This document shows, piece by piece, positions 19,417 through 41,971 of a stretch of DNA of 64,000 nt; the first letter of the stretch is position 1; the number at the start of each line of letters is the position of its first letter. Position numbers and translations under genes: made by a program. Origin of the DNA: Paenibacillus azoreducens (GTDB lineage Bacteria; Bacillota; Bacilli; Paenibacillales; Paenibacillaceae). The notes under the pieces are model-generated. The model did no database searches, was not told the DNA's origin, and was given only the letters and a program-made list of their open reading frames with translations. Where the stretch lies: contig NZ_AP025343.1 in assembly GCF_021654775.1 (NCBI RefSeq), forward strand, positions 2,571,501 to 2,635,500, read 5' to 3'.

Positions 19417-21663
19417 TCACTGCCTGTCACGGAATTGAGTTGGCGTCATGCCGGTCGCTTTTTTGAACACGGTGAAGAAATGGCTTTTTGTTTGAAAACC
19501 GGCTCGCATTCCAACATCTGTGACGGGCCAGTTCGTTGACAACAGCAGTTCCTTGACCTTGGCGATGCGCTCTTGCAAAATGTAGTCTGAAAGCGTCTGG
19601 TCGAAGGTCTCTTTAAACAACTGTCGGACATGCCTTGTCGATAATGAGACATGTTCGGCTATATCTTCGATTGTAAGCATCGGATCGGGGAGGTTTTGCT
19701 TGACGTATTCCACGATTTCGGACACGATTTCTTCACGCCGACTGGAGCTTTTGCGGTTGCCGTTTTCGTTGATAATGTCAAGCAGTTCTTTTTCAAGCCA
19801 TGTTCTTACCTCGCCCAGCGTATCAAACGCCTCTAGCATTTTTTCGATATCTTCCACGGATTGGATGGAAGGAAGCTTGTTGAATGTTTTGAACAAGGTG
19901 TAAAGCAATAACAGCAGCTGGAATTTGCTTTGTATGTAATGCATGGCATGCATGTGCACGAATATAAGATCCAGAATCCCCGTTATTTTCTCCGTTCTTC
20001 CCATTCTGATTTGCTTGATAAGCTCATCCAGTAAATCATCGTTCAGCGTCTGGGCGCGGTGCATATAATCCTCATAATCGCGCTCAATGAACACCTTATC
20101 CTCGCCGGAAATGAATTTTAGCATCGTCAGTTCGTGAATATGCTGATAAACGATGCGCAAATCGTCGCTAAACATCCGTGAACCGCTCACAGCTACCGTT
20201 ACTTGGATATTCGTCCACTGCCTAATCTGTTTCCCGGCTTCCTCCATGGCTCCGATTAATTCATCCATCTGAACGTTATCTCCAGATATGAACAGGACAA
20301 GATGGTCGCTCCCCAAATCGACTGATTCCGCATACCAGTTTCGGCGGACCACTTCCTCAGCAATATTGCCGATGGCATATTTCAATAACTTTCTGGAAGC
20401 AAAATTATACTTTTTATTAAACGCGCTATATTCATTAATGCGGATGACACTTATATAGAGAGCTTCATGCCCAAACAGCCCGGAATTCTCATGCAGGTAC
20501 TGTGTAACGGGCGATGACAGCTTTCCTTGAAGGATCCACTGCCGCAAATACTCCGCTTTGATTACATTTTGGTGCTCGCGCATGGATGAATCAAGTTGAA
20601 TCATCCGATCCTCCAGCATTTCAATTCCGTGTCGGATGACTTTGAACTCGGCCATGGCAATGTCTTTATACTTGTTCTTGGAATGGAGCCCCAATTTTGT
20701 CTCCAATTGATTCGCCAGCTGCGTGAAAGGTTTATAGGTACGCCGCGAATTCCAGAACAAAATGACAATCAGCAGGGCGTCAAGACCAGCGACGACGATG
20801 ACAAATTTTGTCCGGAACGAGTTGAAATCGGCACGCATGCCCTCCAGTTTGGCCATTTGATAGATGATCCAGCCTTGAGGTTCGATCATTGCGTATTGCA
20901 CGGCCCAGGACTCCCCCTCATAGGTGCGTGTAAAACTGCCTGCTTCGCCCACTGAATTGACGGTTAATCCGGCATACAGGTCTTCCGAATCCTGAGGGCC
21001 GAGCATGACCTGTCCGCTTTTGTCAAGAATGAACGACCGGATTTCCTGGCTGGAATCCCCTTTGAGCAAATATTGCTGCATCAAATTGTCATTCAAGATA
21101 AGGGCGAGATAGCCAAATGATTGCTGTCCGGAGGGCACTGTCGGAATAATGAGCGCGAGCTGCTGGGTACCGTTCACTTTATGTACGAAAAAACGCAAGT
21201 AGGAGCTTCGGGATTGTCTGACCCGATCCAACATATCCTGATCGCGAAATTGGGGAAAGGAAGCGATGCCGTATTTTAAATCAATGGCGTGTTTTGTCCT
21301 CATGTTGATCAAATACACATTATCGAGGAAGGGTTCGGTCGTCATATATTTGGTTGCCGCCTCAATGGCCTCGACTTGGGCTTCCTGCGATTCCGATCCT
21401 GCCCTCATCCAGGACTGGATGCTTTTGTCGGCGTACATGTTTAGCCCATACGAAATGAGTTTATTAAAAATGAATTTTGCATTGTCTCGGGAATGAGCTA
21501 TCTCCGTTTTGTTCACTTTGTCGATTTGCCTCATCGCATAGATGGAGAATTGATGCGACATCAAGTACACAAACGGTATAGGGACCAAGATAAACAAGAT
21601 ACATAAACTCAGGAAAATCCGGATGTATGTTTGCTTAGGGATAAACCACCGGCTCACTTGCAT
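19417..21663 (-). CDS. Membrane-bound AraC-family regulator
   Basis: 748-residue one-component regulator. A membrane segment at about 12-34, an extracellular Cache-like sensor (about 35-280) and a second membrane segment at about 285-303 lead to a cytoplasmic linker with a degenerate GGDEF-like or coiled segment. A C-terminal AraC helix-turn-helix pair sits at about 650-748 (IEDIAEHVSLSTRHVRQLFKETF ... FFTVFKKATGMTPTQFR). It is divergent from the sugar transporter operon, which it probably activates when an extracellular oligosaccharide binds. Start choice: GAGGGGG abuts the ATG at 21663, so the GTG two codons later (21657, 6-base spacing) may be the real start. Confidence 0.9.
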   Translation of the reverse strand: MQVSRWFIPKQTYIRIFLSLCILFILVPIPFVYLMSHQFSIYAMRQIDKVNKTEIAHSRDNAKFIFNKLISYGLNMYADKSIQSWMRAGSESQEAQVEAIEAATKYMTTEPFLDNVYLINMRTKHAIDLKYGIASFPQFRDQDMLDRVRQSRSSYLRFFVHKVNGTQQLALIIPTVPSGQQSFGYLALILNDNLMQQYLLKGDSSQEIRSFILDKSGQVMLGPQDSEDLYAGLTVNSVGEAGSFTRTYEGESWAVQYAMIEPQGWIIYQMAKLEGMRADFNSFRTKFVIVVAGLDALLIVILFWNSRRTYKPFTQLANQLETKLGLHSKNKYKDIAMAEFKVIRHGIEMLEDRMIQLDSSMREHQNVIKAEYLRQWILQGKLSSPVTQYLHENSGLFGHEALYISVIRINEYSAFNKKYNFASRKLLKYAIGNIAEEVVRRNWYAESVDLGSDHLVLFISGDNVQMDELIGAMEEAGKQIRQWTNIQVTVAVSGSRMFSDDLRIVYQHIHELTMLKFISGEDKVFIERDYEDYMHRAQTLNDDLLDELIKQIRMGRTEKITGILDLIFVHMHAMHYIQSKFQLLLLLYTLFKTFNKLPSIQSVEDIEKMLEAFDTLGEVRTWLEKELLDIINENGNRKSSSRREEIVSEIVEYVKQNLPDPMLTIEDIAEHVSLSTRHVRQLFKETFDQTLSDYILQERIAKVKELLLSTNWPVTDVGMRAGFQTKSHFFTVFKKATGMTPTQFRDRQ

Positions 21664-22018
21664 CCCCCTCGTCCTTTATTCAAATTTGTAAGATTCATTA
21701 TAGCAGCCAAGATCCCGGATTGAAGCGCTTAACCCAAAATATGCAATACGAGTATAACACATAAAAACGGGATCCGGTTGTAGTCCGAAGTTTTGCACTT
21801 TTCATGCGAAATTGCCCGTAAATTGGGCAAAGTCCGGCCTAAAGGGAGCATTTATTTCCGGTTTGCATACCCGATTTCCATAATAAGAACCTGCCCTGCA
21901 GGCTGTTTTGGATCAGCCATTTCCTAGATCAGAACTATACAGGGCAGAGAGGAATGCCATAAACTTGGTCGTATTATAACGAATTACAATGGTGGCAAGA
22001 GAGGAGGCCCGTGTAAAG
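21664..22018. promoter_or_regulatory. Divergent regulatory region of the polysaccharide locus
   Basis: 355 bases between the AraC regulator and the first transporter gene. It contains an inverted repeat TTGCCC (21812-21817) and GGGCAA (21825-21830), a palindromic GAAGCGCTT near 21723, and a distant pair CTGCCCTG (21891) and CAGGGCAG (21950). Any of these could be an operator, but none matches a known site. The AGGAGG at 22002 is the ribosome binding site of the permease gene. Confidence 0.45.
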
Positions 22019-22930
22019 GTGGCTGTATTCAGAGAAATTTTAAAGAACAAATATTTGTATCTCCTGGCGCTTCCCGGATTGCTGTTTTTGCTTGTATTTG
22101 CCTATCTTCCGATGACCGGTTATTTAATCGCTTTCAAAAAATACCGATTATCAGACGGTTTATGGGGCAGCGAATGGGTCAGGTTCGACAACTTCAAATT
22201 TTTCTTCATGGGCAGCGATTGGTACAAGGTGACGTTTAATACGATCTTTCTCAACGGATTATTTATTGTTTGCGGCCTTGGAATTGCTCTGCTGCTGGCG
22301 ATCTTTCTAAATGAAGTACGGAATCTGGTCTTCAAAAAAATGGCGCAAACCTTTATTTTCATGCCGTATTTTATTTCATGGCTGGTTGTCAGCATGATGG
22401 TATTCGCTTTTCTGAATACGACTGACGGTATTCTTAACCGCACTTTGGCTGCTTACGGCATACAGGGGGGGAATTGGTACCTAATGCCGGGGATTTGGCC
22501 CGCTGTACTCACGATCATCTATATATGGAAGTTTGCCGGATACTACTCGATCATCTTTTTGGCTGCCATAACCGGGATTTCGGGCGAGTATTACGAAAGT
22601 GCGCGGATCGATGGAGCCAGCAGGTACCAGCAAATCATTCATATTACGATTCCATTGATCCGCAATGTGCTGGTCGTTCTTGCCTTGCTGGGGGTCGGCC
22701 GCATTTTCTACGGCGATTTCGGGATGATTTACGGGATTATCGGCGATAATGCGCCGTTGTATCCGACGACCGATGTTATCGACACCTACTCATTCCGGGC
22801 GCTTCGCCAATTAGGTGATTTCAGCAAATCATCCGCCGTAATTTTGTATCAGGCCGTTATGGGGCTTGTGACGATCGTGCTTTTTAATGCGATAGCGAAA
22901 AAAATCGATAAGGATTCTAGTTTGTTCTAA
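22019..22930 (+). CDS. Sugar ABC transporter permease, LplB type (system 1)
   Basis: First membrane subunit of a CUT1-type oligosaccharide importer, about 303 residues and six membrane segments. The permease loop EYYESARIDGASRYQQIIHITIPLI carries the EAA motif that docks the ATPase. Start choice: a GTG at 22019 lies 11 bases after AGGAGG, whereas the ATG at 21989 has no ribosome binding site. No ATPase gene is in the locus; such systems normally share an MsmX-type ATPase encoded elsewhere. It is followed after 12 bases by the second permease. The AraC regulator opposite probably controls it. Confidence 0.93.
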   Translation: MAVFREILKNKYLYLLALPGLLFLLVFAYLPMTGYLIAFKKYRLSDGLWGSEWVRFDNFKFFFMGSDWYKVTFNTIFLNGLFIVCGLGIALLLAIFLNEVRNLVFKKMAQTFIFMPYFISWLVVSMMVFAFLNTTDGILNRTLAAYGIQGGNWYLMPGIWPAVLTIIYIWKFAGYYSIIFLAAITGISGEYYESARIDGASRYQQIIHITIPLIRNVLVVLALLGVGRIFYGDFGMIYGIIGDNAPLYPTTDVIDTYSFRALRQLGDFSKSSAVILYQAVMGLVTIVLFNAIAKKIDKDSSLF

Positions 22931-22942
22931 CAGAAAGCGGGG

Positions 22943-23878
22943 ATGGACATGGAAAATTCACTCGTTCAAATCAGGACGATGGAAGCAAAAAGGGGAAAGA
23001 TGGGCAGCTCCTTATCCGAAAAAATATTTATGATCTTTATCTATATATTCACAGGCGCGTTTGCATTGGCTTGCTTTCTTCCATTCTGGCTGGTGCTGAT
23101 TAATTCCTTTGCCGCAGAGTCGAACATCAAGCTGCATGGCTATCAGCTGTTCCCGAAAGAGTTTTCTCTGGCTTCCTATCAATATTTGCTGGAAGGCAAG
23201 CAGGTCTTAAGCAGCTATATTGTATCTACTAGCGTAACCGTTGCGGGAACCATTCTCGCCGTCGCGGTTACTTCCATGTACGCCTATACGCTGGCTCATC
23301 CGAAAGTGAGATACCGCAATATCCTGTCGTTTCTCACTTATTTTACGATGATTTTCGGCACCGGGCTGGTCGGGTTTTATATCCTCGTCGCCAACTGGCT
23401 TGGTCTCAAGGATACGTTATGGGCGCTGATTCTTCCATACGTTTTGAATCCGTTTTTCGCTTTTATTATGGTTTCTTTTTTTCGAACGTTGCCTTACGAG
23501 ATTAATGAGGCGGCGACGGTGGATGGAGCCAATGATCTCACGATTTTCTTTAAAATCATTATTCCAATCTCGAAGCCGGTTATCGCGACAGTCAGTTTAT
23601 TCTACGCCTTGCAATACTGGAACGATTTCTTTCTGGCGCTCTTGTTCATCGACGATTACAAGCTGCATCCGCTGCAAATGATGATCCGTCAGCTTATTTC
23701 CAACATCAATATCGGTGCGTATGTCAGCGGCAGCCAAACAACGTATACGCAGCCATTGCCAACTTATGGCGTACAATTAGCGACCGTATGTTTGACGATC
23801 GGTCCGATTATTTTGCTGTATCCATTCACTCAGAAATTTTTTGTGAAGGGGATTACAATCGGCGCCTTGAAAGGTTAG
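22943..23878 (+). CDS. Sugar ABC transporter permease, YtcP type (system 1)
   Basis: Second membrane subunit of the importer, 311 residues with six membrane segments and the EAA motif in EINEAATVDGANDLTIFFKIIIPISKPV. The C-terminal FVKGITIGALKG is typical of the YtcP subgroup that pairs with LplB-type permeases. Two possible starts, ATG 22943 and ATG 22949, follow AAAGCGGGG. The gap to the binding-protein gene is unusually long (181 bases) and contains structured repeats. Confidence 0.93.
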   Translation: MDMENSLVQIRTMEAKRGKMGSSLSEKIFMIFIYIFTGAFALACFLPFWLVLINSFAAESNIKLHGYQLFPKEFSLASYQYLLEGKQVLSSYIVSTSVTVAGTILAVAVTSMYAYTLAHPKVRYRNILSFLTYFTMIFGTGLVGFYILVANWLGLKDTLWALILPYVLNPFFAFIMVSFFRTLPYEINEAATVDGANDLTIFFKIIIPISKPVIATVSLFYALQYWNDFFLALLFIDDYKLHPLQMMIRQLISNINIGAYVSGSQTTYTQPLPTYGVQLATVCLTIGPIILLYPFTQKFFVKGITIGALKG

Positions 23879-23952
23879 CTACAAATTTTTGCTTATCTAT
23901 ACAAGTTGAACCAATAATTGAACGGATGAAGGCAGCCGGGTGAAATGTTTGT

Positions 23953-24043
23953 CTATTCAAAGCAGCACGCAAAAACAAAGCATATGCTTTCGAAGCAAGT
24001 TTTTGCTTAACTTAGTCGCCTATTCAAAGCAGCACGCAAAAAC
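23953..24043 (+). promoter_or_regulatory. Duplicated segment and competing hairpins before the binding-protein gene
   Basis: A 24-base segment beginning CTATTCAAAGCAGC occurs twice, at 23953-23976 and 24020-24043. Each copy ends in GCAAAAAC. Between them lie a 14-base palindrome AAAGCATATGCTTT (23977-23990) and GTTTTTGC (23999-24006). GTTTTTGC can pair with the GCAAAAAC of either copy, so two mutually exclusive hairpins are possible. The second ends six bases before the AGGAGG of the lipoprotein gene. It may stabilise or process the operon mRNA, or tune translation. Confidence 0.6.
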
Positions 24044-24059
24044 TTTTAGGAGGTCAAAA

Positions 24060-25598
24060 ATGAAAACCAAAAAGATTATGGCAATGATGTTGGCATTTTT
24101 TCTGGTAATGACAGGAATCATCGGGTGCAGCAAATCAGGCGATTCTTCCCCAGGCAATGTAAGCGCGGGCTCAGGCGGGAAGCTCGATCCGGTTACACTG
24201 AAGATTGTACTGCCTGGCGACCGCCCGGCCGATATGGATGTCGTCATCAAGGAAGCTGAGCGAAGAATGGCCGATACGCTTAATGTCAAGCTCGATATTG
24301 TCTTCGTGCCCTGGTCCGATTTGGCCCAGAAAACGCAGATGATGCTCGCTTCCGGCGAAAGTGTCGATCTGATCTTCGATGCGCCGTGGCTGCATATGGA
24401 GCAGATGATCAGCTCGGGGTACTATGAACCGTTGGAAGATTTGCTGGACAAATACGGGCAGGATGCGCTCAAAGTCCGATCGCAGCAAATGTTTGACGCA
24501 AATAAATTCCAGGGCAAAATTTATGCGCTGCCTTTGGGCAATACCCATCTGGCGGGAAGAACGTATCTGGTCCGCAAAGATCTTCGTGAAAAATACGGTC
24601 TGCCGCCGATCAAAACGTATGACGATCTGATACAGTTCGCATACAAGGTGAAAGAAAACGAAAAGGATGTCATCCCGCTGCTCGCTTACGGCCAACCGGG
24701 ACAAAAGGACGTGTCGTGGGGCGCTTTCAGAGCTTTCATGGAATATGATCCGCAAATTCTGAGATCGGATGCGCTCGGGCAAAGCCTTGTCTTGTACTAC
24801 AAAAATAACGACGGCAAAGTATATAACCTTTTTGACGAGATGGAGCCGCGGGTATGGTCCTGGATTGAAGAGGCGAGAAAGCTCTATACGGATGGGCTTA
24901 TTCATCCGGACATTCTTGCACTGAAGGATGTCAATTCGGTGATCGAATCCGGCAAAATTGCCGTGGCAGTCTACAATGAATTCGGTGTTCCTACTCAGTT
25001 TGAAACAGCGGTAGCACGCAATGTACCAGGCGCGGAATTGGAAGCGGTCACTTTTATCAAGTCGGAAAAAGGAAAAAACATTACGAATTTCAAACAAGCA
25101 AACTTTCAGGCGATCCCGAAAGTCAGCAAAAATAAAGAGCGTGCCATGATGTTTTTGAATTGGGCCGCCCAGAAGGAAAATTACGATCTGCTCGCTTACG
25201 GGATCGAAGGTACGCATTACAAGGCAAAAGGCGACGATCAATACGAGCAAATCGGTTCCGGTTATTCGTACTTCCCGTATGCATGGATCTGGAATCCGAC
25301 GACAGACCGGTTAAACGCCGGATTTGATGCGGATTCGATTGCGCATTATCAATTCAATAAAAATGCGGATAATTTGACGTCAAGCATATTAACCGGTTTC
25401 TCCTTCGACCCGGGGCCTGTTATGAACGAAATATCACTCTATAATGCGGTTGAAGATAAATACTACAATGCTTTGTTCGATGGCGTCTTTGATCCGGCCG
25501 AGCAGTGGAACAAGCTGAAAGCAGAAGGCGAAGGCTACGTCAAAAAGATTCAGGTCGAGCTGCAGAAGCAAATCGACGCCTTTTTGGCTCAAAAATAG
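24060..25598 (+). CDS. Sugar-binding lipoprotein, LipO type (system 1)
   Basis: Extracellular receptor of the importer, 512 residues. The signal peptide ends with lipobox GIIGC and the lipidated cysteine is C23. The mature part has the solute-binding protein family 1 fold, with a C-terminal region typical of LplA/LipO receptors (near 440-512). The start is the ATG at 24060 directly behind TTTTAGGAGGTCAAAA; the frame runs open to 23940 but has no ribosome binding site there. It is probably transcribed with the two permease genes and made in excess of them through the RNA structures upstream. Confidence 0.93.
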   Translation: MKTKKIMAMMLAFFLVMTGIIGCSKSGDSSPGNVSAGSGGKLDPVTLKIVLPGDRPADMDVVIKEAERRMADTLNVKLDIVFVPWSDLAQKTQMMLASGESVDLIFDAPWLHMEQMISSGYYEPLEDLLDKYGQDALKVRSQQMFDANKFQGKIYALPLGNTHLAGRTYLVRKDLREKYGLPPIKTYDDLIQFAYKVKENEKDVIPLLAYGQPGQKDVSWGAFRAFMEYDPQILRSDALGQSLVLYYKNNDGKVYNLFDEMEPRVWSWIEEARKLYTDGLIHPDILALKDVNSVIESGKIAVAVYNEFGVPTQFETAVARNVPGAELEAVTFIKSEKGKNITNFKQANFQAIPKVSKNKERAMMFLNWAAQKENYDLLAYGIEGTHYKAKGDDQYEQIGSGYSYFPYAWIWNPTTDRLNAGFDADSIAHYQFNKNADNLTSSILTGFSFDPGPVMNEISLYNAVEDKYYNALFDGVFDPAEQWNKLKAEGEGYVKKIQVELQKQIDAFLAQK

Positions 25599-25621
25599 CA
25601 ACCGTAGCCGAGAAGGCAATA

Positions 25622-25630
25622 GAAAGGAGG
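25622..25630 (+). promoter_or_regulatory. STAB-SD-like sequence without a start codon
   Basis: GAAAGGAGG, identical to the mRNA-stabilising STAB-SD of Bacillus thuringiensis cry3A leaders. No ATG, GTG or TTG lies at a suitable distance after it. It is 110 bases before the start of the giant enzyme gene, in the gap after the binding-protein gene. Confidence 0.5.
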
Positions 25631-25740
25631 TAAGAGAGAGTATACAACGGTTAATAACTTAAGCTCCGAATGCAGGTCATGCTTGGATTGGCAGTCATTT
25701 TTCAAAGCGATAACGAATGGGAAATGGAGTTGATTTGAAG

Positions 25741-28700
25741 ATGGCGGGAAAAAGCAGGAAAGTGATCTGTTTGTTGCTAGCCCTCACGTTTGCCTTTTGC
25801 AATCTGCCTGTGCTGCAGGCTGCAGAAAGCGAGCAGACGTCGAAGGTTAATTTACTGGCAGCGGATATGGATTCAACGTTTAGTGATGGGATAAGCCCGT
25901 TCAAGCTGGAAGTCAGCACATCCGGAGGAACTCAGCGCATTGTTCAGATTGACGGCAACAACGCGCTCGAACTCCGCGACGCCTCCCTGGGTTCGAACGC
26001 AGCGAGCTATTTCTATTATCAGCTGGACAGCGGCAGGCTTAAGGATCGCATTAATGAAATCTACAACATGCCGCAAGGAAGCCCGCCGGTTGAGCTCGTC
26101 TTGGAGTATAAGTTGAAGCGCAGCGCTGCGAGCGACAAGCCCGTAGCCAAGGATATTTATGCCCAGATCCATTTCGGCAATTCTGATAACAACCTGATTC
26201 CCCGCTTTCCTGTGGGGACGTCGAGCATTTCTAGCACCGCAGCCTATACAAGCAGTGACCAGACGAAGTTAAAGACAGTTAATGACGCGGATCTTCCCGA
26301 ATACCGGTTTAAGATCGTACCGAATGGCGGGCAGCGCATGATTTCGAGTGTGAAACTGGCCTTCTCCGTTCGTGTCGATACAGGCGGTACGGATGAAGCC
26401 TACGTGATTGATGATTTGGCTGTTTACGAACTGAATTCAGCCCAGCCGCAGGATGATGAACCGCCTACGACGCCGGCGGATTTGAAGGCCGTAGGAATTT
26501 TGGACACGAGTGTCAAATTGTCCTGGACTGCTTCGACAGACAATGTCGGAGTAACCGGATATACGATTTATCAGGATGGGGCCCCTGTGCTTAAAGTAAG
26601 CGGGACAACAACCAGCGCAGCTATCGTTGGATTAACGCCGAATACAAACTACCGTTTTACCGTTAAGGCCAGGGATGGAGCGGGGAATATTTCAACTGCC
26701 AGCAACGAGGTTTCGGTGACGACGAATCCTTCGGCCAGCGGGCTGCCCGAGCCATTCGGCAACGGAGATATCGGCAATATCAGACTTCCGGGCAGCGCGA
26801 GCTATGATAAAGATACCGGTACGTTCAAAGTCAAAGGCTCCGGGGCCGATATCTGGGGCAAGGAGGATGCGTTCCATTACGTATACCGGCCATGGACAGG
26901 AGATGGCGAGATTGTGGCACGCGTCTCCAAGATGGAAAATACGGTGGTTTGGACCAAGCCCGGCATCATGATTCGCGGAAGCACATCGGCACAGGCTCCC
27001 TATGTGATGATGGCAGTGACGCCAGCAAACGGGGTCATATACCAAAATCGGCTGCAGCCTGGCGGGGAATCTACGCAATCATGGGGTTCTTCTTCTGCCG
27101 TACCGCATTGGTTGAAGCTGGTACGGAAAAGCAACTTAATCACTGCCTACGAATCGAGTGACGGGACGCATTGGGCGCTGATTAAAAAAGATATAGTTAA
27201 CCTGCCGGATACCGTTTACGTCGGCTTGGCGTTAACCAGTCACGACATCAACAAGCTAAGTACGGCGGAATTTGACAATGTGAGCGTCGGCCCCATCTCG
27301 CCTAACACCAATAATTCGCCTTTCCCGGGCACACCCGAGACAAGGCGCCAATGGGTGTGGGATAAAACGAAGTTGATGTCGGAGATTGACGGTCAGTTGA
27401 ATATTTCCCAAATTGTCGCACAAATTCTAGACGGGCAGAATGAAGCCGTAAACCTGCAGAAGCTTGACAAGATGTTTCAGACTTATGATTGGGAGCAGTA
27501 CAAGACAGTGGCAAAAATGTATGCTTATTTGATGGTAGGCGACCGCTTCAGCAGCGTTATGACGGAACATGCCAGGGATTATTTCTCCAAATACGCATAC
27601 GGCAAGCTGTCGCAGACCGAAAACTTGAGAATGAGCAATTATACGGCCGGCTATTTGGTAGGCCAATACCTTCCCGATCTTCGCGATTTGAATGGCGCAT
27701 CCGGAACGGCACTGAAAAATGCGAACCGAAGCAACATCGAGGAGATGTTGGATGCGGGAGTTCATGGAGGTTGGGCGGAGTATGAAAGCCCGGAATACAC
27801 GATTATGACATACCTATGCCTGAATGCGCTATACCAATATTCGGATGAGCCGGATTTCAAGCAGAAGGCCAAAATGGCCATGGACGTGATGTGGTACGAG
27901 TGGGCGAATGATTGGATCAATGGCACATTTATATCCACCTCCAGCAGAGCGAAGGGAGACGGAGTGACCGTAAACGACCAGACATGGAGAGGAGCGGATC
28001 ATACGGCATTATCCTGGATTTATTTCGGTGGGCACCGCGCTCAAGAGGGATTCGGCGACTCGGATAGCTTGGCCCCGGCAGCTTACCGTCCTTATCTGGA
28101 GTATTTGGGGATGCTGGCCTACAGCGGAATGAATTATTCGCCGCCAGAGATGGCCATCCGCATCGGTCAGGACGTCAACAAAAGCTATTCATCCCGTAAA
28201 ACCAATCTGCAAAATTCGGGCGGCAACCATTTGAAAACTTACCGTTCGGCTTATGTGCAGCCGACATGGGGACTCTCGACCGAGGTGACATATAATCGGG
28301 TCGACAACTGGATCGAAGATATTCCGGTCGTTCTGCGTTGGCTCTCTAATTCGCCGGCTTCCGTATTCAGATTGTCGGTCGATCAGGCAGACAGTCCGAT
28401 CGGCAATTATGATCAGCCCGAAAATCATCGTATCATGCAGGACGATAAGGCGGCCGTGGGCGTATTTAAATCACTTAGCGCGCCGGGAACAAACGTTAAC
28501 TTTATCAATGCGATGTTCCCGGACACAGGGGCGATTCAGAAGCGGGATGAGCAGTCCGGCTGGGTATTCAGCGATACGGGAAAGATGTATTTCGCCTTCA
28601 AGATGATTAAGCCTTACGCGTGGTATTATCAAACTCCGACCGATCCGGCAAACAAGATCAAACAGATGCAGCCCCACCCTACAAAGCAGCTGCATTATAA

Positions 28701-30636: not shown

Positions 30637-30682
30637 ATCTATAGGAGAGTGAGTTGAGAGAGGATGCTTGAAGGAGGTAGAC

Positions 30683-32597: not shown

Positions 32598-34241
32598 ATG
32601 TTAAAGCAAAGAAAAGGCTGGTCATACGGAGCGATTTCCGCCGTGCTCATCGGAGCGCTCGCGGTAACAGGCTGCGGCAAAAGCAACGAGGCGGGAGGAA
32701 ATTCCGGTACACCGCCGGAAGGAAATTCGGCGTCCAAACCTTCGGCTCAGGCGGAAGCGGGTCCATATGAACTCAAATGGTTGAAAGCCCAGGATATTTC
32801 CCTGCCGTACGATGCTTCGAAGGATGTCGTCAAGCAAGCCATCGAGAAGAAGCTTAATATTAAAATCGTTCCGGAGCTCGTGGATGTGCAGCAGTATAAG
32901 ACCAAACTCAATCTGAAAATGTCCAGCAGCGACATTCCGGACGTGGCGAGAATCGATTTTGCCGACGACTTCCAAAAATATGCCCAGCAAGGCGCATTCG
33001 TTGATCTTACCGGCCTTATTAATGAAAAGGATACGCCGAATATTATGAAAGAAGTACCGCCGGAAATATTCGAACAGGCAAAAGTAAACGGCAAAATATA
33101 CGGGATCCCTTATCAAGGCGGACCAGGCGCCGGGTACCGTTGGAATCTGGTTATGCGGAAGGATTACATGGAATCCGTCGGCGCCGACGTGCCGAAAACG
33201 CTCGAAGAATATTATAACCTCTTGAAGAAGATCAAAGCGGAAAAGCCGGAGGTCATTCCGCTTGGAGGATATACGGCCCAGATTGGCGAAACCAAATATG
33301 CCAACAATTCATTTGACAACGTTTTTGGCGCGTTTGGCGTTACGCCGGGCTTTTTCACGGAGAAAGACGGCAAATTCAGCAATTATGACATCGATCCGAA
33401 AATGAGGGAAGCGCTGCTCTTCCTGCAAAAAATGTATGCCGAAGGGCTGATCGATAAGGAGTTCGCGACAATTAAAGAAGAGCAGCTGCGCGCGAAGCTG
33501 TACAGCGGCAAGCTGTTCTCTTGGATGGGCTGGTGGTCGACGGCCAACGACTACGATACGCAGATCGAGACGAGCGAGCTGATGAAAAGCGGCAAGCTGG
33601 CATCGGACGGAAAATTGCCAAACCAGGCCGAAGAGCCGTTCAAATATTTGAAGCTGACTGGTTCGCTCCTGGGTGCGGACGGGACGGCTGTAGCTCCATC
33701 CGGCGCTCCGTTTTCGCAAATGAATGCAATAAGCGCCAAAACGAAAGATCCGAAGAAGGTGCTTTCCATTATTGAGGAGTCCCTATCTCCCGAAAATCAA
33801 ATGCTGACGGTTTGGGGGATTGAAGGCGAAGATTACAAGCTCGAGAACGGCAAGCTTAAAGTAGATACGAATTTGGTCGATCCAAAGACGCAGCAGGATA
33901 AGAACGGAAATTTCCGCGGCACGCAAAGCTACTTGTTCGCTCCCGGCTTGAACGGCTGGCCGCATTATCTGGAGTCGCTTCCGCTTCGGTATTCCGAAGC
34001 GCTGGATGTAGCAATCAGCAATCCTCACCAGATTACCGATGCTTCCAATTATTTGGAATCGCCAACGAAAATCGCCAAAATGGTAGAACTGAACACGATG
34101 CGCGATTCGGTCTTCACGCAAATCATCATGGGAGGCGATATCAAAAAGTTTGATGATTTCGTAGAAAAGTGGAATTCGCAAGGCGGTTCGCAAATTTTGA
34201 AGGAGCTGGAAGAGTCTTTCAAGAAAAAATCGGGCAAATAA
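32598..34241 (+). CDS. Sugar-binding lipoprotein, LipO type (system 2)
   Basis: Extracellular receptor of the second importer, 547 residues. The signal peptide ends in LAVTGC with the lipidated cysteine at C26. A Ser/Pro/Gly linker then leads into a family 1 solute-binding fold. Family-like segments include PYQGGPGAGYRWNLVMRKDYMESVG, and the hinge and ligand face are aromatic-rich. AAGGGGG lies about 11 bases before the ATG. A 14-bp hairpin separates it from the glycosidase gene, a common place for processing that leaves receptor mRNA more abundant. Confidence 0.93.
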   Translation: MLKQRKGWSYGAISAVLIGALAVTGCGKSNEAGGNSGTPPEGNSASKPSAQAEAGPYELKWLKAQDISLPYDASKDVVKQAIEKKLNIKIVPELVDVQQYKTKLNLKMSSSDIPDVARIDFADDFQKYAQQGAFVDLTGLINEKDTPNIMKEVPPEIFEQAKVNGKIYGIPYQGGPGAGYRWNLVMRKDYMESVGADVPKTLEEYYNLLKKIKAEKPEVIPLGGYTAQIGETKYANNSFDNVFGAFGVTPGFFTEKDGKFSNYDIDPKMREALLFLQKMYAEGLIDKEFATIKEEQLRAKLYSGKLFSWMGWWSTANDYDTQIETSELMKSGKLASDGKLPNQAEEPFKYLKLTGSLLGADGTAVAPSGAPFSQMNAISAKTKDPKKVLSIIEESLSPENQMLTVWGIEGEDYKLENGKLKVDTNLVDPKTQQDKNGNFRGTQSYLFAPGLNGWPHYLESLPLRYSEALDVAISNPHQITDASNYLESPTKIAKMVELNTMRDSVFTQIIMGGDIKKFDDFVEKWNSQGGSQILKELEESFKKKSGK

Positions 34242-34287: not shown

Positions 34288-34318
34288 ATATCTTGCCATT
34301 TTCCGGAGGCGTTCATAA

Positions 34319-37300
34319 ATGAATACGTGGATCAGGAGTATAAGCACGTTATTGATTGTGGCCTTGATAGTCAATTTCTTTCCGTTCCCGGCTAAAGCAG
34401 AGGCGGAAGCTCCGCAGCTGCTGTTCGAGGACAGCTTCTCTGTCGGCCTGGGGCAATGGGATTTGTTTGGCAGTACGGCATGGCAAACGCAAGGAAATGA
34501 ATCGGAATCCTGGTTGGCAGGCGAAACAACGGCAACCTCCCCCCAGCGGACAGTGGTGAAAGCTTCCGTACTTTCTTACAGTTCCAACGACTATCGCCTG
34601 TCATTTCGGGCGCAGGGTAACAGATTTCGTTCCCTGTTCCGGTATACATCGGGATCAAGTTACTATTTTTTGGAGTTTAAAAATACGAAATCGGTTGAAT
34701 TATGGAAGTATCCCGGCTCGTCATCCAATGTACAGGTAGGCAGCACTGTTGATATCGGCGGCGTATTACCGGGTTTCAATCTGGCGGAATGGCACCAATA
34801 TGATATTGAGATTCGGGGCGACGAGTTCAAATTGTTTGTCGATGGCAAATCGGTAACCGCTTTCAAGGATTCTTCCCTGTCTAGCGGCGGGATCGGGTTC
34901 TCGATCAAAAGCATCGGAACTGCCGTCAACGTGAAAGTCAGCCAGGTGAAGGTGGAGGCGCTGTCCGCTCCGGAGCGGCCGTTAACGATCAGCCATTCGC
35001 CTGTAACCACAGTGCCATACAATACGAATGTAGCTGTTTCCTTTTCGCTTATGGATTCAGGCTCCCCAGTTACGGCCAAGGTTTATTATGCCTATGGAGA
35101 AGAGACGGCCGAAAATTCGGTTGAAGCAGCGAAGCGGGAAGGCGGGGCATACGCGGCTGTCATTCCAGGAACGAACCGGACGGATCAAATCCGCTACTAC
35201 ATTGCTGCTAATGATGAACTAGGCCATTCCGGTCGTTATCCTGAGAGTGGATACATCACGGTCGACGTTGGGAAAATGGCTCCATATCGGAACGATTTTG
35301 AAGGTGATCGTGCGGGCTCGGCTCCGGCCGGCTGGACCACAGGAGGAAACGCGAAGGTGATTGAGCTCCCTGACGGCAGCAAAGCGTTTAATCTAAACGG
35401 ATCAAGCAGCGCAAAATTGAACCTGCCCATGTACCAAAACGCGGATAATTTTGTCGTCAAGTTCAGGGCCAAATACGAGCGGACGGGTTCGGCCGTACAG
35501 AACACATGGCGCCTCCGCTATCGCGCTGTGGACGATATGAACAATAATGCGATGGAATGGGCGACGCATAATTCGAAATATTTTTTAATGCGCAAGACGG
35601 AGCTCGGAGGCAACTATTATATTGCTAACTATGTGAAATCGCTGCTTGACGATTGGCATGAGTATGAACTACGGGTGAGCGGCATAACCCATAAGCTGTT
35701 CATTGACGGGATAGAGGTAGCCGGCGGGGACGATTCCGATCCGTTGGCTCTGCAGAAAGGTTATTTTCAATGGAACGTCGTCGGCGGGATCAATCTGATG
35801 ATTGACAATTTCTCCATCGAACCGATTGCGGCTCCTTATGTACTTGATCTTCAGCCTGCAGGCAACTATGCAGGCATTTATGAACAAGGGGAAGCACCGG
35901 GTCTTGCACTTTCGCTCAACGCCGGGGCATCGGCGCATGAGTTTGCGCTGAATTATACACTGCGTCGGGCGGATGGAGGCAAGGCCGTTGTTGCATCCGG
36001 GGAGAAAACCTATCATTTGGATAAATACGCTGAAACATCCGACTCATTTGCTTTTGAGCCTGCAGTGAATGAAATCGGCACTTATGAGGTAACAGCCGAA
36101 TTTACGGTTGACGGGGTAAAATTGCCGGATAAATCGAAAAAAATGCGCATGGCCGTCATAAATAAAGCGGCAAAGATTCGTGATCCCGATCTGGACAATG
36201 AAAGCAAATTCGGATTGAATACACACTACGCGTTGAATTGGAAGGACGATATCATCGACGGTGCCCGGAAAATGGGAGCGCGCCACCATCGTTCCGGTAT
36301 CTCCTGGGATGAGGCGGACCGGAATGTAAAGGATGCATCAGGGAAAACGGTATATGATTACAGCGCCATAGATGCCAGACTGGATAAATTATTTACCTTC
36401 GGATTCAACCAGATTACGGTACTCGGCATTGACAGAAATGGATATTATCAGGAGGGAACCGCAAATACGCCTGCAGCCTTAAAAGCGATGGGCGACTTTG
36501 TTTATGATGCCGTCAGCCGCTATAAGGGGAAAATCAGGCAGTGGGAGATGCCGAACGAGCCCGAGATTTTCTCCAAGCCCTATGTACCTGCCGAATTCGT
36601 GCAGCTGCAAAAGACCGCCTATCTCAACATGAAGAAGGCTGACTCGAACGCGATGCTTCTCGCAGGTGATCATACTTCCAGCGTAAGCAGCGTGCTGCCG
36701 AAAGAGCTCGAGCTTGGTTCCTTCGATTATGCCGATGCATATTCCTTTCATCCGTATGTGTATAATGCCATGCCAGACGACAATTTGCAGAATTTGCTGG
36801 ACAGCGTTAAAGAGCTTGTCAACAAATATGGGGGATGGAAGGACTACTATTTGACGGAAGGCGGTTGGCCGACGGCCAAAGCGGGCTATCCTTCGGTTAC
36901 GGAGGAGACGCAGCGCGACTATATCGTCCGCGCTTTCCTGAATTATATGATTACGGACCAGGTGAAGGCCTTCGAATATTACAATTATAAAAATGACGGT
37001 ACGGATGACCGTTATTACGATATATTCTGGGGGATCACGGACAATGACGGAAGACCGAAGCTGGCCTATGCCGCAGTCAATCAGCTGATGACCAGCCTGG
37101 ATAAAGCGAGGTATGCGGGGACATGGGATACGGGAGACCCAGGCGTTGCCGTTCACGTGTTCGTAAATGGAGGGAAGCCGGTGATCGCGGCCTGGAAAAA
37201 GACGGATCATAACAATCCTGACGTCAAACCGCCGACTAGCGAGATCACACTGCCTTTTGCCGCTTCTGGACTTCAAATCAAGGATATTAACGGCGCTGAA

Positions 37301-39223
37301 ATTCCGATAACAGAAGATGGCGGAAGTACCCGGATTGTCGTATCCGGCTCGCCTATTTATGTTACGGGAGTTCCTGCAGACTTTGTATTTCAGTCAGCGA
37401 CTCAGCTGCTGCAGGAGAAGGAGCGTGGGGCAGTTGCCAGACTGATGGCTCTGAAGACGCAAGAAAATGCTGCGCTCATTGATGGCGATAAGGCGGAGCT
37501 TGAGCAAATAACGGCTCAACTGATCAAAGCCGCAGGCGAGAATGCTGCTGCAGGGTTAGAACAAGGAATCAAAAATATTTATGTTTTGATGCAGCAAATC
37601 GCCGGCCAGATCGCCGACGGCTCCGTAAGTAGAGCACCGGGCTATGTCGCACTGGAGGCTTTGTACAATATGGCCGAGAACGCGTCGGTTGCCCTGTCGT
37701 ATGCTCTTGAACGTTCCGAGCCTGCCTCCGTCGGCCCGAACAACCATCCCGATTATGCCGCTGCCGCATTTAACGACATTAAAGGCGGATACAGCGTCAT
37801 GCCTGTTTCCGAGTCGGCGGTGCTGCGCATGAAACGTTATGGCAGACTGGCGGATGCCGCGTACGCACAGGGAAGCTATGCGGACAGCTATGCCTATAAT
37901 CTGCTTGCAAGGGAATTCGCAGGTGCGGTAAAAGCGATGGCCGCTTCCGAGCCGCCGAAATTTAATGGAGTGATGGCGAGCATCGTACCCGTGCAGGCGA
38001 ATGGCGAGGCCGGCAACGCCACTACGTTCACCCTTTCGCTTGTTAACGAAACGGATCTTCCCCAGGATGTGACTGTACGCCTGCGCCTGCCGGACGGGTG
38101 GGCTTCATCTCAAAACGAGCCGGCTGAAGTTTTGTTGACTGTCCCGGCAAAGGGGATGCTGGATCGGTCCTACCATGTTCTTGTACCGGAGGATACTGTC
38201 AAGGGACGATATGACATCGCCGCCGACATCATATACAATGGGGCGGTTTTTGATACGAAGATCGTTCAGTTGACGGTGGAAGAGGGAGTCGAAGCCAAAA
38301 TTGTTCCCGTTAAGAAAACGATCAAGGATCTGGACGTGATCACCTTGGAATTGACGGGAACGTCTTCAGCCGAAAAGTCGGGTAGAGTGATCATGAAAGA
38401 TCCTGACGGTAACGTGCTGCAGCCCGTGAATACCGATTCCTTCAGCGGGTTGAAGAAAGGAGATACCGTCCGGCTCGATTTCCGTTGGACGTACCATACA
38501 TTCGCCCCATTCAATGAATATCCCGTCGACGTGCAAGTGGAGGAAACGGCCGCGGGAAGAGTGATTTTCCATGATCCTGCCATGACGCTTGATTTCAATC
38601 TGGTTCAGCGCGCGGGAAATTTGACGATCGACGGCAGCCTTAAGGGTTGGGAAGATGCTTACCCGTTTCATCTGCGCCGAAATGATCAGAATGCGAGCGG
38701 ATACCATGACCCCGGCAAACTAGAGGCGACGGCTTATGCCAAATGGGCGGAAGATGGCCTTTATTTTGCCGTTTCGGTACATGACAATGTACACAAGCAA
38801 TCGGAGAACGCGGCGAACTTGTGGAAGAACGACTCCATTCAGATCAGTCTCGATCCATTAAACAACCGGGAATCCCCGTATGGGCAGGACGATGTGGAGT
38901 GGGGCTACGCTTTGGCGGATGACGGCAGGCTGCTCGTCAATATTTTTAATTCGATGCCGCCCAATCCGAGCGGAGAGATGAGCGGGCGAGTACCATTTAT
39001 GGCGCTCCGGGATGAAGCGAACGGCAGAACTCTGTATGAGCTTCAAATTCCAGCCGAGTACGTTAAGGATCTGAAACCGTCCATGGGCGGAATCATCGGA
39101 TTGAACGTTGCCGTCAACGATGCCAACTATCAGAACGGGCGGGATAATTTTATCCAATGGACTAAAGGGACGGCGGATTCGAAAAATACATCATTGTATG
39201 ATTCCTTTTTGTTTATCGATTAA
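34319..39223 (+). CDS. Giant secreted GH-A-clan glycosidase with CBM9
   Basis: 1634-residue exported enzyme. Signal peptide about 1-28; a concanavalin-like module at about 32-222, homologous to residues 1368-1550 of the protein at 25741; an Ig-like domain at about 223-317; a second LamG-like module at 320-507. The catalytic TIM barrel spans about 620-930, with acid/base E747 in WEMPNEPE and nucleophile E847 in YLTEGGWP, 100 residues apart as in clan GH-A and closest to GH39-type enzymes. A helical segment (about 1020-1170), an NEW3/CARDB-like domain (about 1195-1430) and a CBM9 module (1435-1634, LTIDGSLKGWEDAYP) follow. The ATG follows CCGGAGGCG. Substrate unknown. Confidence 0.9.
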   Translation: MNTWIRSISTLLIVALIVNFFPFPAKAEAEAPQLLFEDSFSVGLGQWDLFGSTAWQTQGNESESWLAGETTATSPQRTVVKASVLSYSSNDYRLSFRAQGNRFRSLFRYTSGSSYYFLEFKNTKSVELWKYPGSSSNVQVGSTVDIGGVLPGFNLAEWHQYDIEIRGDEFKLFVDGKSVTAFKDSSLSSGGIGFSIKSIGTAVNVKVSQVKVEALSAPERPLTISHSPVTTVPYNTNVAVSFSLMDSGSPVTAKVYYAYGEETAENSVEAAKREGGAYAAVIPGTNRTDQIRYYIAANDELGHSGRYPESGYITVDVGKMAPYRNDFEGDRAGSAPAGWTTGGNAKVIELPDGSKAFNLNGSSSAKLNLPMYQNADNFVVKFRAKYERTGSAVQNTWRLRYRAVDDMNNNAMEWATHNSKYFLMRKTELGGNYYIANYVKSLLDDWHEYELRVSGITHKLFIDGIEVAGGDDSDPLALQKGYFQWNVVGGINLMIDNFSIEPIAAPYVLDLQPAGNYAGIYEQGEAPGLALSLNAGASAHEFALNYTLRRADGGKAVVASGEKTYHLDKYAETSDSFAFEPAVNEIGTYEVTAEFTVDGVKLPDKSKKMRMAVINKAAKIRDPDLDNESKFGLNTHYALNWKDDIIDGARKMGARHHRSGISWDEADRNVKDASGKTVYDYSAIDARLDKLFTFGFNQITVLGIDRNGYYQEGTANTPAALKAMGDFVYDAVSRYKGKIRQWEMPNEPEIFSKPYVPAEFVQLQKTAYLNMKKADSNAMLLAGDHTSSVSSVLPKELELGSFDYADAYSFHPYVYNAMPDDNLQNLLDSVKELVNKYGGWKDYYLTEGGWPTAKAGYPSVTEETQRDYIVRAFLNYMITDQVKAFEYYNYKNDGTDDRYYDIFWGITDNDGRPKLAYAAVNQLMTSLDKARYAGTWDTGDPGVAVHVFVNGGKPVIAAWKKTDHNNPDVKPPTSEITLPFAASGLQIKDINGAEIPITEDGGSTRIVVSGSPIYVTGVPADFVFQSATQLLQEKERGAVARLMALKTQENAALIDGDKAELEQITAQLIKAAGENAAAGLEQGIKNIYVLMQQIAGQIADGSVSRAPGYVALEALYNMAENASVALSYALERSEPASVGPNNHPDYAAAAFNDIKGGYSVMPVSESAVLRMKRYGRLADAAYAQGSYADSYAYNLLAREFAGAVKAMAASEPPKFNGVMASIVPVQANGEAGNATTFTLSLVNETDLPQDVTVRLRLPDGWASSQNEPAEVLLTVPAKGMLDRSYHVLVPEDTVKGRYDIAADIIYNGAVFDTKIVQLTVEEGVEAKIVPVKKTIKDLDVITLELTGTSSAEKSGRVIMKDPDGNVLQPVNTDSFSGLKKGDTVRLDFRWTYHTFAPFNEYPVDVQVEETAAGRVIFHDPAMTLDFNLVQRAGNLTIDGSLKGWEDAYPFHLRRNDQNASGYHDPGKLEATAYAKWAEDGLYFAVSVHDNVHKQSENAANLWKNDSIQISLDPLNNRESPYGQDDVEWGYALADDGRLLVNIFNSMPPNPSGEMSGRVPFMALRDEANGRTLYELQIPAEYVKDLKPSMGGIIGLNVAVNDANYQNGRDNFIQWTKGTADSKNTSLYDSFLFID

Positions 39224-39241
39224 TATTTAATACGAACCTCT

Positions 39242-39260
39242 CGGCCGGCATTGCCGGCCG
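39242..39260 (+). repeat. GC-rich perfect palindrome before the kinase gene
   Basis: CGGCCGGCA and TGCCGGCCG around a single T, 18 bases after the glycosidase stop. There is no T-tract, so it is not a typical terminator. It may separate the enzyme message from the kinase-regulator message. Confidence 0.5.
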
Positions 39261-39295
39261 GAGGGATTCGCGGGGCCAGAAGTTAGGAGGAGACC

Positions 39296-41149
39296 ATGTT
39301 CGTAACTAACCGGAACCGGACTCGGAAAGATAAAGCGAGCTTACTGACGAGGCTCAGCATTCCGATCTTTGCGCTCATCGTCACATTCATCGCACTTTTT
39401 TCAACGGCTGCCAGCTACATCCTCATCCATGTACAAAACGATCACAACCGCAAGATGGCGGAGCAATCGATGAAATTTGTCTACAGGAACGTATGGTACC
39501 AGTTCGATACGATGAATAATGTGGCGGCGTTTATTTTGACGAACCAATCGATCGAAAATTTACTGGAAAACGCTCATCGGGAAACGTTCGATGCGGTCGA
39601 CGATTTTTTCGCCTTGCAGACCAATCTTCAAAACCTGTCCTTGCTGTCCCTCGTAAACGATATCGGTTCGCAAAACGCTCCGCAGCAGTCCTACAACGTG
39701 TCCCTGGCACTGGACCCCGGAAGCGGGCTTTATCCCCTGGCTACGGATCATTTCTATCCGGTGACAGGCATTTTCAAATCGGAAGATTTGCGGGATGAGT
39801 CGTGGTTCCGCAGTTTGGGCCAAGGAGGAAGGAAGACTGTATGGTGGGGACAAAAGACGGGCAGGTCAGGCGCCCAAATGATCTATTCGGCGAGAAAGAA
39901 AACAAGCATCAAGGATGGCCGCAATATAGGAACTGTTATCGTCGGGGCTGATATCGGAAGCATTAAAGGCGTGTTCGAAAACGCTCCGCTCGAAAAGGGA
40001 TTCCATCTGCTGCTGGACGAAAGCGACCGGGTCATTTATAGCGAGCGCTACGGATTTCTGGAGTTGATGGGAGATCATCCTTACATCCAGGGAATCACGG
40101 GTACAAAGGGTTCATTTGCGACGAAAGTAGACGGGAAAATGGACCGGGTCATGTTCGAAACGCTGGAAAACGGCTGGAAGCTGTTAACGGTCGTCCCGGA
40201 AAGCCACTTCAACCAATACACCTTTGCGATCTCGGCGATCGGAGCCGTTACCGCGGCCGCGGCCGTCATCGTTGCGGGGGTTTGGCTGCGCAGAATCGTC
40301 GTTCGGGTAACGGTACCGATCACGAGACTCGTCAATGCGATTCAGCGCCCTGAAGTAGTGGAGTTCAAAGAGCCGCTTCCACGCCAAAAATCGGGAATCT
40401 ATGAAGTGGATGAACTGAATGAGAAGTTTGCTTCCATGCTCGTCACGATCCACGGTCTGATCGAAAAATCGTTCGCCGAAGAGATGGAGCGCCGCCAGTT
40501 GCAGCTGGAGCTGCTGCATGCCCAGATCAATCCTCATTTTCTGTACAACACGCTGGACTTGATCAACTGTCGGGCCATTATGGCCGGAGACATGGAAGCA
40601 AGCCGGATTGTCCGCTCCCTTGCCAACGTTTTTCGTTTCGGCCTGAATCAGGGCCAGACATGGATTTCTCTGGGTGATGAAATGAAGCAGGTCGAAGCCT
40701 ATCTCCAAATTCAGCAAATCATGATGGATCATTTGCGGGTGGAAATAAAGGTGCCGGAAGAGCTACTTTCTTCAACGGTTATCCACCTATGCCTGCAGCC
40801 TTTAGCGGAAAACTCCATCATTCACGGGTTTGCCGATCAGCCGGCCGCCTGCCGTATTGCAATTACGGCGCAAACGGATGAAACAAATCTTGTATTGTGC
40901 GTCGAAGACAACGGCAGAGGCTGCGATGCGGAGCGGATGAACCAGGCTCTGCAGGAACATGAGGAGCAGCCTGTAGGCTTCCCGGGCGGACAGCTGCATG
41001 AAAACGGAGCCGGTTACGGCACAATGAACGTCCACCGCAGAATTCAACTCCATTGCGGCAAAGCGTATGGATTGCGTTATAAGAAGACGGATATTGGGAC
41101 TTGCGTCGAAGTCGTGTTCCCCTTGCGGTTTGCTTCGCCCGGGTCTTGA
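39296..41149 (+). CDS. YesM-type sensor histidine kinase
   Basis: 617-residue membrane kinase. A membrane segment at about 21-45, an extracellular Cache-type sensor (about 46-300) and a second membrane segment at about 305-330 lead to HAMP. The His_kinase domain has phosphoacceptor H414 in HAQINPHFLYNTLD, N box PLAENSIIHGF and G boxes DNGRGCD and GYGTMNV. TTAGGAGGAGACC precedes the ATG. It is next to the polysaccharide locus and 15 bases from its response regulator, so it probably senses the locus substrate or a breakdown product. Confidence 0.94.
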   Translation: MFVTNRNRTRKDKASLLTRLSIPIFALIVTFIALFSTAASYILIHVQNDHNRKMAEQSMKFVYRNVWYQFDTMNNVAAFILTNQSIENLLENAHRETFDAVDDFFALQTNLQNLSLLSLVNDIGSQNAPQQSYNVSLALDPGSGLYPLATDHFYPVTGIFKSEDLRDESWFRSLGQGGRKTVWWGQKTGRSGAQMIYSARKKTSIKDGRNIGTVIVGADIGSIKGVFENAPLEKGFHLLLDESDRVIYSERYGFLELMGDHPYIQGITGTKGSFATKVDGKMDRVMFETLENGWKLLTVVPESHFNQYTFAISAIGAVTAAAAVIVAGVWLRRIVVRVTVPITRLVNAIQRPEVVEFKEPLPRQKSGIYEVDELNEKFASMLVTIHGLIEKSFAEEMERRQLQLELLHAQINPHFLYNTLDLINCRAIMAGDMEASRIVRSLANVFRFGLNQGQTWISLGDEMKQVEAYLQIQQIMMDHLRVEIKVPEELLSSTVIHLCLQPLAENSIIHGFADQPAACRIAITAQTDETNLVLCVEDNGRGCDAERMNQALQEHEEQPVGFPGGQLHENGAGYGTMNVHRRIQLHCGKAYGLRYKKTDIGTCVEVVFPLRFASPGS

Positions 41150-41164
41150 AAGGAGAGATACTGC

Positions 41165-41971
41165 ATGTTTAAGCTGCTTATAGCCGAGGATGTAAGGACT
41201 GTTCGGGAAGCGCTGGTTCACTCCGTTCCCTGGGAGAAAATCGGCATTTCGCTGCTCGGGACCGCAGCAAACGGCGAAGAAGCTCTGGCCTTGCTGGACC
41301 GCGAAGTGCCGGACCTGCTGTTGACGGATATCGGCATGCCGAGAATGAACGGGTTGGAATTGATCGAGGCCGTTAAATTACGGAATCCGGATATCAGTTG
41401 CATCATCTTATCCGGATTAAACGAGTTTGAGCATGCGAGGCAGGCAATCAAGCTGCAAGTGCTGGATTACATCCTGAAACCGATCGATCCGGATGACATT
41501 GAACGGGTGATGTCGAAAGCGGTAGCCGAAATGAGAAAGCAGCGGGCAGAACGTCATGAAGTGGCTGTTGCGGAGCAAACGATTAAGGCCGCGCTGCCGA
41601 ATTTGTCGCAGACGCTGTCTCCGGAGAATTGGTCCGGCGGCTTAAAGAAAAAGAAGCTGGTCGAGCAGGCGATTCAGTATATAAAGGAATCGTATTGCCG
41701 CAAAAATTTGACGCTGTCGGATGTGGCGGAAGTGGTTGGCTTAAGCGACAAATATTTGAACCTGCTAGTCAAGGAAGCCACCGGCACGACAACAAACCAT
41801 TTGATCATTCGATTCCGTATGGAGGAAGCTGCACGCCTGCTGAAGGATCCCGCCAATAAAATCTACGAGATCTGCGACAAGATCGGATACGCGGACCAGG
41901 ATCATTTCCGGGAGACCTTCAAAAAGCTGTATGGCTTGACGCCGACCGAATACCGCAACAGGTCGCTATAA
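41165..41971 (+). CDS. Short YesN-type response regulator with AraC HTH
   Basis: 268-residue partner of the preceding kinase. The receiver domain (1-120) has E8/D9, phosphoacceptor D55 in LLTDIGMP and lysine in ILKPID. An AraC DNA-binding domain covers about 165-268 and ends in DHFRETFKKLYGLTPTEYR. AAAGGAGAG precedes the ATG. Like the regulator at 1443 it lacks the long central region of larger YesN proteins. It is the most likely activator of the operon starting at 30683. A strong terminator follows. Confidence 0.94.
   Translation: MFKLLIAEDVRTVREALVHSVPWEKIGISLLGTAANGEEALALLDREVPDLLLTDIGMPRMNGLELIEAVKLRNPDISCIILSGLNEFEHARQAIKLQVLDYILKPIDPDDIERVMSKAVAEMRKQRAERHEVAVAEQTIKAALPNLSQTLSPENWSGGLKKKKLVEQAIQYIKESYCRKNLTLSDVAEVVGLSDKYLNLLVKEATGTTTNHLIIRFRMEEAARLLKDPANKIYEICDKIGYADQDHFRETFKKLYGLTPTEYRNRSL

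Follow-up and report, generated by a model that had tools for sequence, protein, structure and literature searches.

In polysaccharide lyase (PL) families PL33, PL35, PL17, PL15, PL12 and PL39 (and PL8), an (α/α)n toroid is combined with an antiparallel β-sheet. By published numbering, clan members place a neutralizing Asn about 53-63 residues from the catalytic Tyr, this Asn is replaced by Arg, Glu or Asp in some, and the triad includes a catalytic His. Gram-positive glycan-utilization loci bring together a sensor, an importer dependent on a substrate-binding protein (SBP), and secreted genes of the carbohydrate-active enzyme (CAZyme) type in one run. Such a run lies at positions 19417-41971 of a 64,000-nucleotide stretch of Paenibacillus azoreducens DNA (NZ_AP025343.1, 2,571,501 to 2,635,500, forward strand), hereafter the window. 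As a system, the locus is of a known kind. Our best explanation, which we consider probable, is that it serves the use of one uronate- and probably galactose-containing polymer, which one of its two giant proteins, P0001, would cut as a lyase. The other, P0002, resembles glycoside hydrolase (GH) family GH39. The features of P0001 that bear on this explanation are listed below in window positions.

25717..30453, + strand: P0001, 1578-residue multidomain protein (Big_2 and fn3 above cut-off; CBM_4_9 and PF06439 under cut-off)
27319..29106, + strand: P0001 core, residues 535-1130, predicted lyase-clan catalytic domain (AlphaFold2 (AF2) model, Foldseek, VIA, family alignment)
27622-27624, + strand: N636, corresponding to the clan's Asn
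27796-27798, + strand: Y694, corresponding to the clan's Tyr
29836..30423, + strand: C-terminal module, residues 1374-1569, common to P0002 (56% identity to P0002 33-229)

The AF2 model of the core had a predicted local distance difference test score (pLDDT) of 80.4 and a predicted template modeling score (pTM) of 0.84. Its predicted fold is the two-domain, toroid-plus-β-sheet fold of the uronate lyases. Indeed, lyases made up 27 of the 28 best chains found with Foldseek using this model, and the lyase rows of the VIA structure alignments spanned about 395-457 residues, covering both domains. Conserved residues were evaluated in a 23-row family alignment that combined the window with 8 of 36 close loci and with 14 of the 17 distant loci examined out of 20 (L088, L092 and L093 were omitted). 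N636, E688, Y694, and R744 were invariant in all 23 rows. The clan's Asn and Tyr are thus both represented, at a spacing of 58 residues in P0001 and 51-53 in the distant groups. No His was conserved across the 23 rows. Within the subfamily of P0001, H762 and H987 (229 and 454 in the first row of alignment A3) were invariant in 32 rows. A3 covered 31 of 36 loci, with L010, L017, L040, L041, and L042 omitted as near-duplicates or broken; alignments A1 and A2 contained 28 of 66 and 22 of 54 proteins, respectively.

The core had no significant profile or sequence match among the known families in Pfam (including Hepar_II_III_C and Lyase_8), NCBIfam, and PDB sequences; specifically, residues 535-1130 matched no Pfam family at E ≤ 0.01 and no NCBIfam family at E ≤ 1. 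With a core-only profile of 32 rows, 33 PDB sequences scored E ≤ 10; the lowest value was 0.066, and most were antibody chains, which we attribute to chance. An eight-row profile that included distant relatives gave four, the best at E = 0.47. Comparison of the core with known families using hhalign yielded weak, non-significant scores; the GH88 control in the profile comparison scored E 0.34-0.39. A phmmer search of 5.8 billion proteins, scoring the 7989 candidates with the most words in common, returned at least 66 clusters; among the matches listed, all were at least 53% identical and the named ones were from Paenibacillus, Cohnella, and Actinomycetota. A further profile search added only fragments to this set, and a search of plasmids found no match. 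Among 394 Paenibacillaceae genomes, the core was matched at E ≤ 1e-20 in 39, of which 20 were close (≥64% identity) and 19 were 26-34% identical. Stand-alone relatives of 577-601 residues also exist. Nothing on the family was found among the papers listed in literature searches.

By these searches, the core represents a family new to the sequence libraries covered. A sequence-only reading of the window had likewise been unable to place the core in a family and had suggested a new type of polysaccharide lyase or hydrolase, a suggestion that the likeness of the predicted structure to uronate lyases strengthens. Judging from the model, and as part of the explanation we favor, P0001 probably represents a lyase family so far undescribed. 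Separately, P0038 of Streptomyces scopuliridis is a GH2-type protein fused in-frame to a core domain, which may be a genuine fusion or an artefact of assembly. At G158:C22:95277-95948, a core homologue with an internal stop and a partial domain, by appearance a decayed copy, adjoins a P0002-like gene.

P0002 has the following features.

34319..39223, + strand: P0002, 1634-residue multidomain protein (CBM9_1, NPCBM_assoc, and PF06439 above cut-off)
34415..35005, + strand: N-terminal module, residues 33-229, common to P0001 (56% identity to P0001 1374-1569)
36194..37372, + strand: GH39/PslG-like barrel and following β domain, residues 626-1018
36557-36559, + strand: E747, proposed acid/base
36857-36859, + strand: E847, proposed nucleophile
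37376..37948, + strand: helical region following the barrel (helices predicted in model residues 510-700)
38006..38230, + strand: NEW3-type domain (NPCBM_assoc, 39.3 bits)
38705..39199, + strand: CBM9-like C-terminal domain (CBM9_1, 58.5 bits)

The folds closest to the barrel in structure alignments were those of GH39 enzymes and PslG (13-20% identity), and phmmer matched it to 5jvk with E = 9.9e-9. No Pfam family matched the barrel at E ≤ 0.01. As in GH39, the barrel is of the GH-A type and carries the acid/base and nucleophile Glu pair, in keeping with the GH-A clan proposed from the letters alone.

The two proteins share a 196-residue module that a genome search at E ≤ 0.001 found in no other protein; the one extra weak match (E 7e-4) lay inside P0002. 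Among 26 Paenibacillaceae loci, 24 carried the module, either within the core protein or within a gene belonging to the P0002-like cluster, and 15 of them in both. In L042, it lay in a fragment, and L041 gave no match. A close core was present in 20 and a close P0002 in 21 of the 394 genomes, and all 20 core genomes had both, counts that are inflated by relatedness among genomes. The two were on the same contig in 17 of these 20 genomes and on different contigs in 3; in genome G203, P0002 had a close counterpart but the core had no match. P0002 was also present in 19 of 19 named Paenibacillaceae records searched, and in none of 10 actinomycete core loci within the stretch examined. The proposal that the locus acts on one glycan is thus backed by a module exclusive to the two enzymes in the genome and by genome-wide co-occurrence.

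Based on the list of open reading frames (ORFs) and Pfam, positions 19417-41971 contain eleven genes, one divergent and ten on the + strand. The nine gaps among the latter are 12-214 bases, and 325 bases separate them from the divergent AraC gene. The remaining genes are as follows.

19417..21663, - strand: AraC-type membrane regulator with a sensor region resembling Cache, oriented divergently from the operon (HTH_18, 75.5 bits; dCache_1, 26.5 bits, under cut-off of 45)
21989..22930, + strand: ATP-binding cassette (ABC) permease 1 (BPD_transp_1, 52 bits)
22943..23878, + strand: ABC permease 2 (BPD_transp_1, 48.5 bits)
23940..25598, + strand: substrate-binding lipoprotein 1 with DUF3502 C-terminus (SBP_bac_1, 70.1 bits; DUF3502, 49.9 bits)
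30668..31633, + strand: ABC permease 3 (BPD_transp_1, 38.1 bits)
31652..32527, + strand: ABC permease 4 (BPD_transp_1, 43.7 bits)
32598..34241, + strand: substrate-binding lipoprotein 2, lipobox by eye (SBP_bac_1, 62.1 bits)
39296..41149, + strand: YesM-like sensor histidine kinase with Cache-like region (His_kinase, 74.6 bits; dCache_1, 27.9 bits, under cut-off)
41165..41971, + strand: YesN-like response regulator with AraC domain (Response_reg, 79.6 bits; HTH_18, 74.4 bits)

The inventory of the sequence-only reading, including two permease/permease/binding-protein sets and no ATPase gene, agrees with these data. Its length for P0002 stood, while that for P0001 (1570 residues from 25741) becomes 1578 from the first ATG at 25717. 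The lipobox-bearing start of lipoprotein 1 is probably 24060, not 23940. Signal peptides and secretion of P0001 and P0002 were judged by eye only. We take permease 1 to be LplB-type and permease 2 to be YtcP-type. Elsewhere in the genome, one gene (G000:C1:7091355-7092455; 478.8 bits) passed the NCBIfam UgpC cut-off of 432.

The closest protein records, 98-99% identical over the parts searched, carried the names Paenibacillus donghaensis and P. azoreducens. A closely similar gene set is present in further loci of Paenibacillus and Cohnella, which argues against a chance grouping; the position of the AraC gene differs in several. Homologues of the AraC regulator (E ≤ 1e-20) and of lipoprotein 1 were present in 19 and 23 of 26 Paenibacillaceae loci, respectively, and lipoprotein 2 was matched (E ≤ 1e-20) in 17, at 25% identity in the weakest case. 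Gene calls outside the window were made by codon score; small genes and starts are unreliable, and L093, L108, and L120 are partly wrong. The flanking genes scanned (zinc uptake, GHL10, patatin, M24 peptidase) appear unrelated; near the locus, at 16566-18212, a copper amine oxidase N-terminal-like domain is joined to a GHL10 domain. Scanning the window for Rfam families (at gathering scores) and for tRNAs found nothing, and promoter and terminator sites in 21600-41500 were no commoner than in shuffled sequence.

The candidate glycan was evaluated from genes neighboring the system in relatives. Of 19 named Paenibacillaceae records, 11 had a PF07470 (GH88/105-type) gene no more than 6 kb from the P0002-like domain; for the remaining 8, the stronger matches listed included none close to it. 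The order P0002, YesM, YesN, PF07470 held in nine of ten stretches compared, the tenth (L108) being unreadable. Paenibacillaceae loci also contained DUF4432 genes of two types (19 of 26), a melibiase/GH31-like gene (9 of 26), and GH42 (7 of 26). Actinomycete loci contained GH42 (5 of 10) and UxuA-like and short-chain dehydrogenase/reductase genes (6 of 10). Because GH42 and GH2 β-galactosidases and GH88/105-type genes adjoin the system in relatives, a polymer with galactose and uronic acid is suggested. Specifically, this gene content suggests that the glycan contains uronic acid, and probably galactose too. Arabinogalactan-type gums are candidates, as are acidic bacterial exopolysaccharides, and we name nothing firmer. 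A connection with Pn3Pase, a capsule-degrading enzyme of Paenibacillus sp. 32352, was not supported, as the papers listed gave no link to these genes.

An aldolase/Gfo-Idh/PfkB trio occurred in 2 of 10 actinomycete and 2 of 26 Paenibacillaceae loci. The trio, of a DeoC/LacD-type aldolase, a Gfo/Idh oxidoreductase, and a PfkB kinase, stood beside the system in two phyla (L037, L039, L029, L031, and L111); the released sugar may therefore take an unusual route. In L015, the order was GH2, two permeases, SBP, P0002, kinase/regulator pair, PF07470, aldolase, Gfo/Idh, PfkB, an additional small gene, DUF4432, and DeoR. Among 17 distant core loci, four had PF07470 genes (two weak, 33 and 41 bits) and three a P0002-like gene. 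In L089, genes for KduD, 2-keto-3-deoxy-6-phosphogluconate (KDPG) aldolase, KduI, and a PfkB kinase begin about 3 kb from a core relative. In this stretch (L089:9131-17447), the distant relative, a stand-alone protein of 582 residues in which no signal peptide was seen by eye, shares its strand with kduD, the KDPG aldolase gene, and kduI; a major facilitator superfamily transporter and a regulator lie between. A weakly Hepar_II_III-like protein (L081:4944-6812; 16.3 bits, under cut-off) and a DUF2264 protein (L082:11245-12444) each lie beside a distant core relative and are possibly further enzymes of the same pathway.

The computations show gene content, predicted folds, conserved residues, the common module, and co-occurrence; catalysis, mechanism, substrate, import, and induction we infer, for a system in two halves: the AraC/Cache sensor, first importer, and P0001, and the second importer, P0002, and kinase/regulator pair. 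This layout is consistent with the two sensors proposed by the earlier reading, whose interpretation as a whole has computational support. Secreted P0001, targeted by its accessory domains, would cleave a uronate-containing polymer by β-elimination, with N636 neutralizing the carboxylate and Y694 acting as acid or base. P0002, bearing the same module, would act on that polymer too, hydrolyzing a glycosidic bond through a retaining mechanism that uses E747 and E847. The fragments would enter through both importers, powered by a common UgpC/MsmX-type ATPase encoded elsewhere, and, in this genome, β-galactosidase and GH88/105-type steps would be left to unlinked genes. We read the two halves as separable, yet probably directed at the same food source in Paenibacillaceae.

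Several observations weigh against this explanation. The structural scores of the P0001 core are modest, with low TM-scores. PF07470 had no match in six of nine actinomycete core records searched (nine of the ten with a core; one of the six is a metagenome-assembled genome). Such a gap is hard to reconcile with a simple endo-lyase that supplies a hydrolase of this type; an exo-lyase or another enzyme would be needed, or the core is not a lyase. Eight PF07470 proteins were tested, six from beside the system or its relatives and two unlinked copies of the own genome. Six of the eight matched only the NCBIfam family 'beta-galactosidase BglB' (227-254 bits; cut-off, 420), and NCBIfam gave no match for the other two; accordingly, we did not accept these neighbors as proof of unsaturated-uronide hydrolases. 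Finally, the own genome has no PF07470 gene within 1.4 Mb of the locus, and its best GH42 scored 85.8 bits versus 435-508 for those of relatives. A core with the lyase-clan fold that acts as a glycoside hydrolase, epimerase, or dehydratase rather than a uronate lyase is nevertheless rather unlikely, given the predominance of lyases in Foldseek, their coverage of both domains in VIA, and the PF07470 and kdu neighbors of relatives.

It is also unlikely that the halves serve different glycans, adjacent merely as complete importer sets and sharing a generic module. Each half does have its own sensor and importer, the separate contigs and G203 fit such independence, and actinomycete loci have the core with P0002 not nearby; yet co-occurrence was complete in the genomes with a close core, and the module is confined to these two proteins. 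The several binding-type domains in both proteins would suit a core that is a non-catalytic carbohydrate-binding or adhesin domain. We consider this highly improbable: structure prediction, the check named in the sequence-only reading, gave a toroid-plus-β-sheet enzyme fold like that of uronate lyases, on which we rejected an adhesin, polar residues are invariant even in distant relatives, and some relatives stand alone. A more far-reaching version of the lyase explanation is possible but doubtful: an undescribed family in Paenibacillaceae and Actinomycetota, surrounded by a broader set of relatives, that keeps the clan's Asn and Tyr, dispenses with the His and, with its module-sharing GH39-like partner, breaks down an acidic polymer containing galactose, one for which bacteria have no described dedicated pathway. 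If the lyase explanation is true, it adds a lyase family unrecognized by the sequence libraries searched, with concrete candidate catalytic residues, and a conserved two-enzyme system of soil bacteria. It would also give a function to proteins named 'fibronectin type III domain-containing', 'Ig-like domain-containing', 'sugar-binding protein', or left unnamed.

Compared with the PL33, PL35, PL17, PL15, PL12, PL39, and PL8 lyases, the P0001 core is alike in predicted fold and in the spacing of Asn and Tyr. It differs in its 6-12% identity in structure alignments with no significant library match, in lacking a family-wide His, and in the residue after the Asn, which is Leu in its subfamily and His or Gln in distant relatives. 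P0002 is like GH39 (xylosidases, and 5jvk of Bacteroides cellulosilyticus WH2) and PslG in barrel fold and GH-A Glu pair, whereas its extra helical region and binding modules, 13-20% identity, and lack of a Pfam match for the barrel set it apart. Finally, the locus resembles Gram-positive loci that we take to be of the LplB/YtcP/LipO and YesMN type in its two-permease importers, lipoprotein SBPs, absence of a local ATPase gene, and control by a membrane AraC protein and a kinase/regulator pair; unlike these, it combines two full importer sets with two giant, module-sharing enzymes.
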